From the NCBI RefSeq assembly GCF_001005085.2, contig NZ_LBMU02000027.1, positions 62,001 through 126,000 of the forward strand: DNA of 64,000 nt, written 5' to 3'. The notes beneath the pieces are model-generated. The model was not told where the DNA came from. It saw only the letters and a program-made list of their open reading frames with translations, and made no database searches. This DNA is from Streptomyces humi. GTDB lineage: Bacteria; Actinomycetota; Actinomycetes; Streptomycetales; Streptomycetaceae. Positions 47,157 to 50,259 of this stretch are shown here, one piece after another (within the stretch, counting starts at the first letter, position 1; every line of letters starts with the position of its first letter). The position numbers and the translations under genes are program-made.

Positions 47157-48584
47157 CTAACGCTGTCGCGTGAGGCCCGCCAGGTCCAGGGCCGTGGCGA
47201 TACGCACGGCCACGTCCTCCGCGTACACCGCGTCCAGGCGCTCGAAACGGTTGCGGCCCGGCCCGCGCAGGAACGTCAGCACGCCCAGCGTCCGCCCCCG
47301 GCTGCGCAGCACCGCGCACATCGCGTGCACCGCGTCGCCCGGCCACTGCCGGTCCAGCGCCCACGCCCGCGCCCGGTCCGGCGGCACCGAACCGGCGTCC
47401 GCCCGCACGCTCCCGGCCCGCTGCACGCACTGGAGCGCCGGATGACCCTCCTCGTAGCGCACCGGCAGCCCGGCCGCGCCCGTCAGCAGGCTCGGTCCCG
47501 GCGCCCCGGTCGGCGTGGCGGCGATCCGCACCAGCCGCACCGGCCCGACGTCCCCGTCCGCGCGGGCGCCGCCCACCACCCGGTCGATCACCGCGTGGTC
47601 CGCGAACCCGGCCAGCGCGAAGTCGAGATGGACGGTGGCCGCCTCCAACGGGTCCTCGCACTCGGCCGCCGCGCGGGCCGCGCGGTGCAGCTGGTTGGCG
47701 CGGAAGCGCAGCACGGCCGCCTCCTGCTCGGCGAGCCTGGCCTCCGTGACGTCCTGGAACAGCCAGCCGACCCCGAGCGGAACCGGCTCCTCCGCGAGCG
47801 GCGACGCGAGCCGCAGGAACCCGGACCGCCAGCACCGCCGCTGCTCGCCCTCCGGCGTCCGCACGCTCACCCACATCTCGGCCGGCGCGGGCGGCGCACC
47901 CTCCGCCAGCACGTGCGTGAGGGCGCTCTCCAGGTCCTCCACGCCCTGCGCGAGCAGCTCACCGAGCGGCCGCCCCAGCGCCGACGAACGCCCGATCCCG
48001 AGCGCCCGCGCGGCGTGCGCGTTGACGACGGCGGGCCGCAGATCGGCGTCGACCAGTACGACCCCCCAGGCCGCGTCCTCGAACAGGGCCTCGCTCAGCG
48101 CGATCGACCGCTCCAGGTCGATCTGCGCGTGCACCTCGCTGAACGCGCAGTACACGCCCGCCGGCTTCCCGTCGGGACCGCGCACGGCCGCCGACTGCGT
48201 CCGTACGAGGACCCGCCCGCCGTCCTTCGTCAGCAGCGCGAACTCGTGCACCTGGCGCCCGGAGGCGTGCATGGCGGCCATCAGCCGCCCCTCGATCTCC
48301 TCGGCGTCCGCCTCGCGCACCGCCCAGCCGGCGAACCCGCGCCGGCCCACCGCCTCGGCCGCCGCCCAGCCCAGGATGCGCTCCGCCTCACGGTTCCAGT
48401 GGGTGACGAAGCCGTCCGCGTCGAAGGCGCACAGCGCCGCGTCCATGCCGTCGAGGAGCGCGGCGAGCAGGTCGGAGCCGCCCGAGTCCTCCGGGGCATC
48501 GCGCTCCGGCTCCGGCTCGGGCTCGTCGGGCCCCAGCTCGTCCGTGGTCCCACTACGCCGGGAAGCACTCACCTGGACCCCCAT
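47157..48584 (-). CDS. PAS/GAF sensor protein
   Basis: A 475-residue protein with two PAS domains in the N-terminal half (ALCAFDADGFVTHWNREAER with ILGWAAAEAVGRRGFAG; GVVLVDADLRPAVVNAHAAR) and a GAF domain after about residue 300 that ends in FERLDAVYAEDVAVRIATAL. There is no output domain such as PP2C, HATPase or GGDEF, so it may be a sensor truncated before its phosphatase; many Streptomyces have PAS-GAF-SpoIIE forms. Signal is unknown. Confidence 0.9.
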   Translation of the reverse strand: MGVQVSASRRSGTTDELGPDEPEPEPERDAPEDSGGSDLLAALLDGMDAALCAFDADGFVTHWNREAERILGWAAAEAVGRRGFAGWAVREADAEEIEGRLMAAMHASGRQVHEFALLTKDGGRVLVRTQSAAVRGPDGKPAGVYCAFSEVHAQIDLERSIALSEALFEDAAWGVVLVDADLRPAVVNAHAARALGIGRSSALGRPLGELLAQGVEDLESALTHVLAEGAPPAPAEMWVSVRTPEGEQRRCWRSGFLRLASPLAEEPVPLGVGWLFQDVTEARLAEQEAAVLRFRANQLHRAARAAAECEDPLEAATVHLDFALAGFADHAVIDRVVGGARADGDVGPVRLVRIAATPTGAPGPSLLTGAAGLPVRYEEGHPALQCVQRAGSVRADAGSVPPDRARAWALDRQWPGDAVHAMCAVLRSRGRTLGVLTFLRGPGRNRFERLDAVYAEDVAVRIATALDLAGLTRQR

Positions 48585-48704
48585 CAGGCTGCGTCCGCAC
48601 GCACGGCGCGTCGGTTTTCACTCACTGCCCTTTCATTCAACTCGAACGTGACGCAGCCCACACTGTGTTCCCGCAAGATTGAGGGAATCGTTGCAAGCCC
48701 CCGT

Positions 48705-49139
48705 TCACAGCTCCAGCCGCAGATCCACCCACTCGTCGGTCTCCCCGTCCAGCACGTACCGCTCGACCTCGGTGAACCCGTACCGCTCGGCGAACCGCAG
48801 CCCGCCCTCGTTGACGGCCAGCACACACGTCTCAAGCGCCCGGGCCCCCTGCACACGTGCGAGCACCTGCTCGTACAGGGCCGCGCCGAAACCCCGCCCC
48901 CGCCACTGCGGCAGCACCCGCACGATCACGGTCACCACCCCGTCGACGGCGGGCCGCACGGTCGAGCACCCCACGAGCTCGTCCCCGACGTACGCGTTCT
49001 CCAGCCGGTACCCCCGCGCCACCCGCTCCCCGGCCTGCGCGGCCGACATCGCGGCGACCGGCACGACCACGTTGTGCACATACCGCCACCGCTCCAGCGC
49101 CTCACCCTCACTGGCGGGAACCACCCTGAGCCCACTCAC
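48705..49139 (-). CDS. GNAT family N-acetyltransferase
   Basis: A 144-residue single-domain acetyltransferase. The CoA loop is VRVLPQWRGRGFGAALYEQV, followed by LETCVLAVNEGGLRFAERYG. ATG start giving MSGLRVVPA. Its 5' side faces the 302-bp region that carries an opposite-strand promoter and a structured element before pdxH. Confidence 0.9.
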   Translation of the reverse strand: MSGLRVVPASEGEALERWRYVHNVVVPVAAMSAAQAGERVARGYRLENAYVGDELVGCSTVRPAVDGVVTVIVRVLPQWRGRGFGAALYEQVLARVQGARALETCVLAVNEGGLRFAERYGFTEVERYVLDGETDEWVDLRLEL

Positions 49140-49171
49140 GTGCGCACCTCGATCTCTGCTGCGAAAAACAG

Positions 49172-49200
49172 TTGAACCCTTCCGATGTGCTTCCTAGAGT
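49172..49200 (+). promoter_or_regulatory. Consensus promoter facing pdxH
   Basis: TTGAAC (49172-49177), 17-bp spacer, TAGAGT (49195-49200): a near-consensus HrdB-type promoter at optimal spacing. It reads rightward into the small ORF and the structured element. Confidence 0.6.
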
Positions 49201-49233
49201 GGCTGTTACTTCAGAAGGGAGGTGGTTCGGTAG

Positions 49234-49272
49234 ATGTATGCATATCGGACGGAAGAGGTGGCTGCGGGCTAG
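49234..49272 (+). CDS. Possible 12-codon leader peptide
   Basis: MYAYRTEEVAAG, ATG 8 nt after GGGAGGTGG. The ribosome binding site is among the best in the window. Peptide coding is uncertain; alternative in-frame reading from 49238 gives a longer frame that continues antisense to pdxH. Confidence 0.35.
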   Translation: MYAYRTEEVAAG

Positions 49273-49351
49273 CGGCTCGCCACCACACGATGTGCGGTGC
49301 CGGACCAGCGTGCGGAGACGTGCGCAGCCGGCCCAATCCCAAGCAGTCACC

Positions 49352-49422
49352 CGACCCGCGAGCTCGCCGGTACGTCCGGCCGGCTCCTCCGTTCAGGCGG
49401 AGGGACCCGAGCTCGCGGGTCG
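49352..49422. terminator. Three-way-junction structure / pdxH terminator
   Basis: Perfect 15-bp outer stem (CGACCCGCGAGCTCG and complement) encloses two inner hairpins: GCCGG-TACGT-CCGGC and CCTCCG-TTCAGG-CGGAGG. It lies 20 bp after the pdxH stop on that strand and could also end the opposite small transcript. Confidence 0.7.
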
Positions 49423-49441
49423 TCTGCGTGCACGGGCCCGC

Positions 49442-50131
49442 TCAGGGGCTGAGGCGTTCCACGTGCCAGGTGGCGTCGGGGGTGGCCGTGTAGCGGAGGC
49501 GGTCGTGGAGGCGGTTGTAGCGGCCCTGCCAGAACTCGACCGTCCGGGGGGCCACGCGGAAGCCGCCCCAGTGCGGGGGCACGGGGACCTGCTCGCCCTC
49601 GGGGTAGCGGGCGCCGAGTTCGGCGTACGCGGTGTCGAGTTCGGCGCGGGAGCGGATGACCGCGGACTGGGTGCTGGCCCAGGCGCCGAGCTGGGAGCCG
49701 TGCGGGCGGGTGCGGAAGTACGCGGCGGTCTCGTCGCGGCCGGTACGGCGGGCGATGCCGGTGACGACGACCTGCCGGCCGATGGGGTGCCACGGGAAGA
49801 GCAGTGAGACGTGCGGGTTCTCGGCGAGGTCGCGGGCCTTGCGGGAGTCGTAGTTGGTGTAGAAGACGAAGCCCTGGGTGTCGTACTGCTTCATCAGGAC
49901 CGTGCGTGAGCTGGGGTGGCCCTGGGCGTCCGCGGTGGAGACGACCATCGCGTTGGGTTCGTAGATCATGCCGTCGTCGGCCGCCCGCACGGCCTGCCGG
50001 AACCATTGGGTGAACTGGTCCATCGGGTGTGCGGCCAGGTCGTTCTCGTCGAAACCCTCGGCCCGGTAGTGCTGCCGCATCGCGGCGGGGTCGTGGATGG
50101 AGTCGTCGGAGGCGGCGTCACGATCGGTCAC
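49442..50131 (-). CDS. pdxH: Pyridoxamine 5'-phosphate oxidase
   Basis: A 229-residue PNPOx making pyridoxal phosphate from pyridoxamine or pyridoxine phosphate with FMN and oxygen. FMN-binding stretches are [20 protein letters not shown] and [20 protein letters not shown], and the C-terminal tail is WHVERLSP with the family's R-L-x-P end. The GTG start ([10 protein letters not shown]) is chosen because the sequence upstream of it lacks coding bias. This is the canonical copy; a divergent paralogue is at 7.1 kb. Divergent from the citrate synthase gene. Confidence 0.95.
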
Positions 50132-50259
50132 GCGGTCATCTTGCCGTACCGCCCCGCGCCACAGCACGGAGTGGCACTGAGTGCCGCTGGGCTCCCCAAT
50201 TCTGGCACTCGGGGTTATGGTGCAGTTGCCTCCGCCTACACCCCAAGAGGAGCCGCCCC

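Follow-up and report, generated by a model that had tools for sequence, protein, structure and literature searches.

A member of the Ms_IGR-5 RNA family with a conserved mini-ORF and a long complement of the 16S rRNA tail: a candidate ribosome-gated RNA in Streptomyces humi

In a stretch of 64,000 nucleotides of the Streptomyces humi genome (contig NZ_LBMU02000027.1, positions 62,001 to 126,000; hereafter the window), the gap between a GNAT acetyltransferase gene and pdxH raises the question of what is transcribed there and whether ribosomes read it. The original prediction had placed in this gap a small RNA or leader peptide gene, citing a TTGAAC-17-TAGAGT promoter, a Shine-Dalgarno sequence, a 12-codon open reading frame (ORF) and a perfect 15-bp stem, and direct reading of the sequence finds each of these in its place, including the 17-nt spacer between the two hexamers. 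Comparison with related genomes brings out a conserved frame, a complement of the 3′ tail of 16S ribosomal RNA (rRNA), and pairings that cross the frame. On this basis we lean towards the view that the locus encodes a stand-alone RNA, structured and about 215 nt long, that is gated by ribosomes, with gating and targets that we infer.

The RNA belongs to a family that is already catalogued, and the RNA family is therefore not new. The RF02471 (Ms_IGR-5) covariance model matches positions 49208-49428 over its full length with 85.8 bits (gathering score 45), and this is its one match in the whole source genome. Rfam files the family as an Actinobacteria small RNA (sRNA) without an assigned function. 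The computed fold (-117.3, against a mean of -99.1 for 200 dinucleotide shuffles; z -3.63) is better than that of all 200 shuffles. At E up to 0.001 the model matches 80 of 81 sampled genomes of the same genus, which argues that the locus is not a chance arrangement, together with 117 of 119 genomes of the same order, 249 of 394 of the same class and 70 of 396 of the same phylum, 35 of the 70 lying above the family cut-off. Second, weaker matches are present at G461:C1:1815352-1815493, G470:C353:2-141 and G839:C377:10470-10603, and are possibly extra or degraded copies or chance.

Expression of the family is on record in published sources. RNA-seq supports Ms_IGR-5 family members in S. lividans (PMC8079986), a transcript is reported in S. 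avermitilis (PMC8780764), and a cold-stress study of M. smegmatis detected a transcript over Ms_IGR-5 (PMC10454040). Ribosome-protected reads cover Ms_IGR-5 in M. abscessus and M. smegmatis, in a report that treats these footprints together with reads on other non-coding RNAs (PMC4974804). The original prediction was to be abandoned if neither a transcript nor compensatory changes in the stem could be found; transcripts of the family are reported from S. lividans and S. avermitilis, which are other strains than the present one, and stem pairs covary, so that the outcome is favourable. A small RNA gene with a conserved mini-ORF is supported.

The family also reaches beyond the Rfam model. R1, our own model of the 5′ part of the RNA built from 121 sequences, matches 172 of the 396 same-phylum genomes (142 at E up to 1e-5 and 30 above), compared with 70 for the Rfam model. 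Inspection of 40 R1 matches found one that looks false (L296, which is without a Shine-Dalgarno), and the weak matches of family f18 that were read (L289-L291) look real; rows L293, L295, L297 and L298, which are without GAGGTG, were judged by eye. A pattern scan of named genomes, demanding neither start nor stop codon, yields at least 119 loci, and among the matches listed are Acidimicrobiia, Solirubrobacterales, Conexibacter, Patulibacter, Nitriliruptoraceae, Nonomuraea and Gordonia, as well as metagenome bins deposited as Acidobacteria and Tectomicrobia. R1 matches 43 of 199 genomes in a second phylum, that of one bin deposited as Acidobacteria gp22; 31 of the 43 are below E 2e-6, and the 28-bit ones may be false. 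Bin names can err, yet the spread across this phylum argues against mere mislabelling. Rfam at its own cut-offs recovers the family in 1 of 20 distant loci tried.

Across this range the mini-ORF is conserved and, judged by comparison, looks translated. Counted from a conserved GAG, codon six is a stop codon in 161 of 161 loci (TAG 134, TGA 20, TAA 7; 133 distinct cores), and the 63 loci that are strictly same-genus have TAG 41, TGA 17 and TAA 5 there. A canonical in-frame start (ATG, TTG or GTG) is found in 154 of the 161 loci, 146 of which have exactly 12 codons, and at 12 codons in all 63 same-genus loci; lengths across the family are mostly 12-15 codons. The pattern-scan set is blind to start and stop and shares few contigs with the 161 loci. 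Among the matches listed from it, the same codon is a stop in 118 of 119 loci (TAG 82, TGA 24, TAA 12), the sole exception (L268) having no stop in 12 codons of the frame and resembling a piece of a coding gene. The 251 distinct cores that have the stop contain no other among the 1506 triplets that make up the six codons ahead of GAG, where 68 are expected from shuffled letters and the other frames hold 20 and 228. The figure of 251 among 265 distinct cores is an understatement, because L329-L332, of the second phylum, were anchored on an earlier GAGGTG.

These counts bear on the simplest objection, that the RNA is untranslated and that start and stop are by-products of its conservation as RNA. 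A large part of the ORF is indeed RNA that pairs, and the sequence around the stop often reads CTAG. Such an explanation is nevertheless very improbable, for TAG, TGA and TAA replace one another with no sense codon among them in every one of the 161 loci and in all but one of the 119 scan loci listed, the first base of the start varies between A, T and G while TG stays constant, and in-frame stops are missing from all 1506 triplets. Canonical starts are present in 207 of the 265 distinct cores, 177 of them 10-12 nt after GGAGG; 54 cores have near-cognate starts alone (CTG 33, ATC 9, ATA 6, ACG 4, ATT 2), which lie 8 nt after GGAGG in 51 of the 54, and four have neither kind. Near-cognate starts are those screened by initiation factor 3, and may matter here for that reason. 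CTG, ATC or ATA following the 16S complement, mostly at a distance of 8 nt from GGAGG, is seen at L180, L184, L194, L208, L211 and L289-L292, in Acidimicrobiia, Thermoleophilia and other lineages.

Ahead of the start lies a run of 19 nt (G-U pairs allowed) that includes the Shine-Dalgarno and is complementary to the 16S rRNA tail. With the tail complement AGAAAGGAGGTGATCC from the source genome's 16S gene as the reference, 115 distinct segments of the family were compared. Positions 1-15 of the complement pair with the tail in 110-115 of the 115 segments at each position, the complement is uninterrupted over at least 15 nt in 108 (19 in the window), and almost every change within it replaces A by G or C by T, which G-U pairs tolerate. 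The last tail base is paired in 98 of 115 segments, the next two bases outward in only 3 and 4; the predicted match stops at what we take to be the mature 3′ end of the tail. A 16-nt degenerate core with zero mismatches occurs at two places in the 10-Mb genome, the RNA gene and the strand opposite 16S, and with up to two mismatches at 11 sites, compared with 18 for the pattern reversed. The computed duplex with the tail is -31.5 kcal/mol for the window RNA and ranges from -26.6 to -35.8 kcal/mol over 138 distinct family segments, all set against the source genome's tail; the best of 43 likely window genes, each granted the best of six starts, reaches -22.0 kcal/mol.

One group of the second phylum (L340-L348) has an extra base in the complement, in the forms GGAGGA-UGGUCC, GGAGGU-A-GAUCC and GGAGGU-U-GAUCC. 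The idea that the 16S tail covaries with the second-phylum form GGAGGATGGTCC was rejected, as the 16S sequence, where found, is the standard GGATCACCTCCTTTC, which leaves a 1-nt bulge; 31 genomes were queried for this check and 18 gave any match, some of these being the sRNA gene itself.

A long tail duplex would also suit a ribosome sponge, that is, an RNA that acts chiefly by tying up 30S subunits or by protecting the 16S tail, with translation of the ORF only releasing the ribosome. The complement spans the tail and ends at its end, its duplex is far stronger than the Shine-Dalgarnos of the window genes, and the tail is a point of attack, being reportedly cut off by a MazF of M. tuberculosis (2025, PMC12274833). 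We consider a sponge unlikely, if still a serious contender, because it would require a high copy number and by itself leaves unexplained both the fixed place of the stop and the pairings that cross the ORF.

Three pairings, P1a, a contact of codons 5-6 with the loop of the terminal hairpin P4, and P2, have strands overlapped by the ORF. Covariation had been named in the original prediction as the check for a real stem, and P1a passes it with 95 both-side-changed cells (equalled in 0 of 500 shuffles) and far lower values for slid versions. The CTTC:GAAG form of the window is the rarer one, present in 5 of 161 loci, and CACA stands opposite CGUG with one mismatch in 19 of 161. The putative contact of codons 5-6 with the terminal-hairpin loop covaries as well, unevenly by lineage. 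It was scored in 226 of 236 distinct loci (ten without GGAC or a clear loop were dropped). The first base, directly 3′ of GGAC, pairs with its partner 5′ of the loop GUCC in 179, 175 of them Watson-Crick (shuffle mean 86, maximum 107), and the second, directly 5′ of GGAC, pairs with its partner 3′ of the loop GUCC in 168 (mean 83, maximum 104). The full set of six pairs is Watson-Crick in 130 of the 226 loci, and both mis-registered controls fall below chance. By lineage, the first base is Watson-Crick in 55 of 60 same-genus loci (shuffle mean 34, maximum 46) and in 32 of 49 loci of L102-L150 (mean 17, maximum 26). In L151-L249 it is fixed, mostly by the scan pattern, which imposes the C after GGAC in L170-L249 and makes pairing untestable at that base; the second pairs there in 71 of 82 (mean 51, maximum 58). 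P2 has 37 both-side changes over nine pairs, compared with about 6 in shuffles, in 145 rows that had passed a pairing cut and are biased toward pairing. Just before its 3′ strand an AAU-YC element recurs across deposited phyla, where a protein might bind or a tertiary contact might form.

A further hairpin, P1b, would pair a 5′ GUCC with GGAC and is partly present in the predicted fold; it was rejected, with zero both-side changes. GAUCC and GUUCC variants break P1b yet keep or nearly keep the 16S complement. Because P1b is without covariation and is broken by these variants, pairing of GGAC with the P4 loop is preferred, and the two pairings may alternate.

If the frame is read, is it read for its product? 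The simplest account of the comparison is that translation to a fixed stop is selected and not the peptide, which is probably a by-product. In nine loci (L294, L299-L306) the frame that runs over the same GAGGUG element is a different one (GGA GGT ...) and encodes peptides of the SGG type, with TAG 14 nt after GAG in 9 of 9; the starts of these loci were read by eye. As frame and peptide change in these loci while start and stop persist, it is translation, and not the peptide, that looks conserved; no selection for peptide function was detected, frame and sequence both differing there. A dual-function sRNA of the SgrS/SR1 type, with a peptide that has a cellular function of its own, could be argued from E-V-A/T, which recurs near the C-terminus in records deposited under three phyla. 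The recurring residues sit mostly in codons that double as RNA stem, however, and those of E-V-A/T lie in P1a and P2, so that RNA pairing explains them. Codon 7 likewise follows P1a, with CACG:CGUG giving Arg, CACA:UGUG giving Cys, and CUUC:GAAG of the window giving Glu instead of Arg, and codons 2-4 vary widely across loci. With the frame change added, a working peptide is improbable, and of the dual-function small RNA first proposed, the RNA and its conserved ORF stand while a functional peptide is doubtful.

The ribosome-gated RNA that we favour would work as follows. A 30S subunit would dock through the long duplex with the 16S tail and then initiate; on its way to the stop codon the ribosome would open P1a, the contact of codons 5-6 with the P4 loop, and P2. 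When ribosomes are scarce, the RNA would refold. The open state would expose GCAGUCACC and the GUCC loop, both of which the closed state would hide, and one of the two states would act in trans. The RNA may in this way sense whether ribosomes read its frame, and would report available or initiating ribosomes.

Several observations weigh against this proposal. Translation, switch and target are all proposals from sequence comparison, and binding of 30S subunits without translation would give the same ribosome footprints. The near-cognate starts (54 of 265 cores) owe their assignment to their position and may in part reflect chance, and one second-phylum group has the 1-nt bulge in its complement although the 16S there is standard. 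Among the pairings, P1a has 3 pairs with both-side change, which is not above shuffles (3.5), and the swap control of P2 is neutral (48 compared with 47.8). For the loop contact, the core GGAC:GUCC is too invariant for a covariation test, the outer base N1 is invariant within the genus and without signal in L102-L150 (9 of 49, shuffle mean 9.5), and the rest of L001-L101 is weak (21 of 35 and 11 of 35; means 14.2 and 9.1, maxima 22 and 15). Family members are, moreover, related, so that shuffle controls overstate the signal.

The coordinates of the RNA and of its surroundings are collected in the table.

Table. Features of the Ms_IGR-5 locus and its neighbours, in positions of the window
Feature	Position	Strand	Basis or remark
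-35 hexamer TTGAAC	49172..49177	+	sequence and conservation
-10 hexamer TAGAGT	49195..49200	+	sequence and conservation
Structured RNA, RF02471 Ms_IGR-5 member	49205..49428	+	Rfam match and fold; 5′ end inferred from promoter and conservation
P1a 5′ strand CTTC, pairs with GAAG 49252-49255	49209..49212	+	covariation
Shine-Dalgarno AGAAGGGAGGTGGTTC	49213-49228	+	sequence
19-nt complement of 16S rRNA 3′ tail (G-U allowed), includes Shine-Dalgarno	49213..49231	+	
12-codon ORF MYAYRTEEVAAG, ATG..TAG	49234..49272	+	sequence and comparison
CGGACG, codons 5-6, complementary to P4 loop	49246..49251	+	
P1a 3′ strand GAAG, spanning codon 7 plus the first letter of codon 8	49252..49255	+	covariation
P2 5′ strand GGTGGCTGC, codons 8-11	49257..49265	+	
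AATCCC internal element	49335..49340	+	by eye, unscored; counterparts recur just 5′ of P2 3′ strand
P2 3′ strand GCAGTCACC, resembles anti-Shine-Dalgarno	49343..49351	+	
P4 terminal hairpin; outer stem of 15 bp without mismatch (49352-49366 paired to 49408-49422)	49352..49422	+	
CGTCCG in P4 apical loop, partner of codons 5-6	49373..49378	+	
GNAT acetyltransferase (PF00583), divergent neighbour, outside system	48705..49139	-	
pdxH, pyridoxamine 5′-phosphate oxidase (PF01243, PF10590), convergent neighbour, outside system	49442..50167	-	

With regard to the transcript's ends, a TAnnnT motif lies upstream of the GAGGTG anchor in 68 of 68 loci of a set that is nearly all of the same genus, and in 136 of 173 other loci. 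The 68 comprise 62 same-genus loci and six of other genera (L022, L025, L028, L030, L081, L089); a recount used 63 loci strictly of the same genus, with the 35 loci of L001-L101 outside the genus grouped apart, and in 63 of these 63 the motif lies 22-25 nt 5′ of GAGGTG (24 nt in the window). Conservation at the -35 offset over the 68 loci is T 0.76, T 0.76 and G 0.62. Over 48500-50200, a strict search for sigma-70 promoters and for terminators gave no hit of either kind. In the window no T-run follows P4; a T-rich stretch does so in L202 and L233 (deposited as Acidobacteria) and L281 (Tectomicrobia), and, being terminator-like, suggests that a separate transcript ends there.

The neighbourhood bears on the remaining explanation, a peptide-controlled attenuator of an adjoining gene (pdxH, citA or vitamin B6 status), which was part of the original prediction. 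In the window, genes for a citrate synthase and a PAS protein also flank the RNA, and pdxH and/or citA adjoin the RNA in many same-genus loci and in some other families. Of the 161 loci, however, 84 are without any of the pdxH, citA, GNAT, PAS and SIS genes in a tblastn search of the fetched flanks (about 1.5 kb for L001-L101 and 2.5 kb for L102-L161, some cut by contig ends, so that distant synteny is missed). Over 262 loci there is no constant neighbour and no common same-strand downstream gene, the largest cluster of neighbour ORFs, picked by a codon-position heuristic, having 56 members. Which gene comes next downstream differs between loci, and this gene often runs convergently. L065, of the family nearest the Rfam consensus, adjoins aminotransferase class IV and THAP4-type heme-binding genes, and gyrA, a GCV_T-type protein and a hydrolase are other neighbours, with one annotated example each. 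The lack of a constant neighbour makes a role in cis for pdxH unlikely. As pdxH is convergent on the opposite strand, and hence not on the ORF's transcript strand, and as some distant homologs have the terminator-like stretch after P4, both the attenuator and the control by vitamin B6 have to be given up as scarcely credible. A predicted small ORF in the 5′ untranslated region (UTR) of Rv0813c in M. tuberculosis (PMC11133741) may sit close to the Ms_IGR-5 locus there or on the strand facing it, a possible overlap suggested by the THAP4-type gene that adjoins the related locus L065.

Known systems share parts of this arrangement. In attenuators of the trp-leader type, the position of a ribosome in a short ORF decides RNA pairing, and the window RNA would likewise couple ribosome position to pairing; unlike them, it has no common same-strand downstream gene and is apparently a stand-alone transcript. 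SgrS/SgrT and SR1/SR1P (PMC11133741) resemble it in having an ORF and Shine-Dalgarno embedded in a small RNA, whereas in Ms_IGR-5 the peptide is not conserved as such, the ORF lies inside the RNA's own helices, and 108 of the 115 distinct segments have a 16S complement of at least 15 nt. The extended Shine-Dalgarno initiation described for S. aureus, estimated by the authors at about 30% of initiation sites (PMC13009471), is alike in pairing beyond the core and in non-canonical starts, but Ms_IGR-5 is mostly one RNA per genome, with a complement that covers the tail. Ms1, a 6S-like RNA that binds RNA polymerase in mycobacteria and is listed separately from IGR-5 (PMC10454040), is also a structured mycobacterial RNA touching a core machine, although its partner is RNA polymerase and not the ribosome. 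The window RNA is a member of RF02471, and the literature searched, which did not include the original Ms_IGR-5 paper, holds no description for that family of the ORF, the tail complement or the loop pairing. A text search did not find the name Ms_IGR-5 in the main text, supplements apart, of a survey of sRNA coding that has S. coelicolor among its species (PMC5521070). Compared with the literature searched, the conservation of the frame, the 16S-tail complement and the covariation of codons 5-6 with the loop are apparently new.

Ms_IGR-5 is widespread, being present in 80 of 81 same-genus genomes, in other classes and in a second phylum, yet it is without a function in the literature searched. 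If translation is conserved and the peptide is not, the RNA would measure translation itself and offer a simple link from ribosome supply to gene control. Exact bases on which this can be tested are at hand in the start, the stop, the 16S complement and the three pairings. More broadly, and more tentatively, the family may be an ancient RNA class, found in Actinomycetota and in one other phylum or more, that serves as a ribosome gauge. The RNA would dock on the 16S tail over the length of that tail and be translated only for the sake of being unfolded by the passing ribosome, and would in this way turn ribosome availability or initiation fidelity (by way of near-cognate starts) into the exposure of a regulatory RNA.
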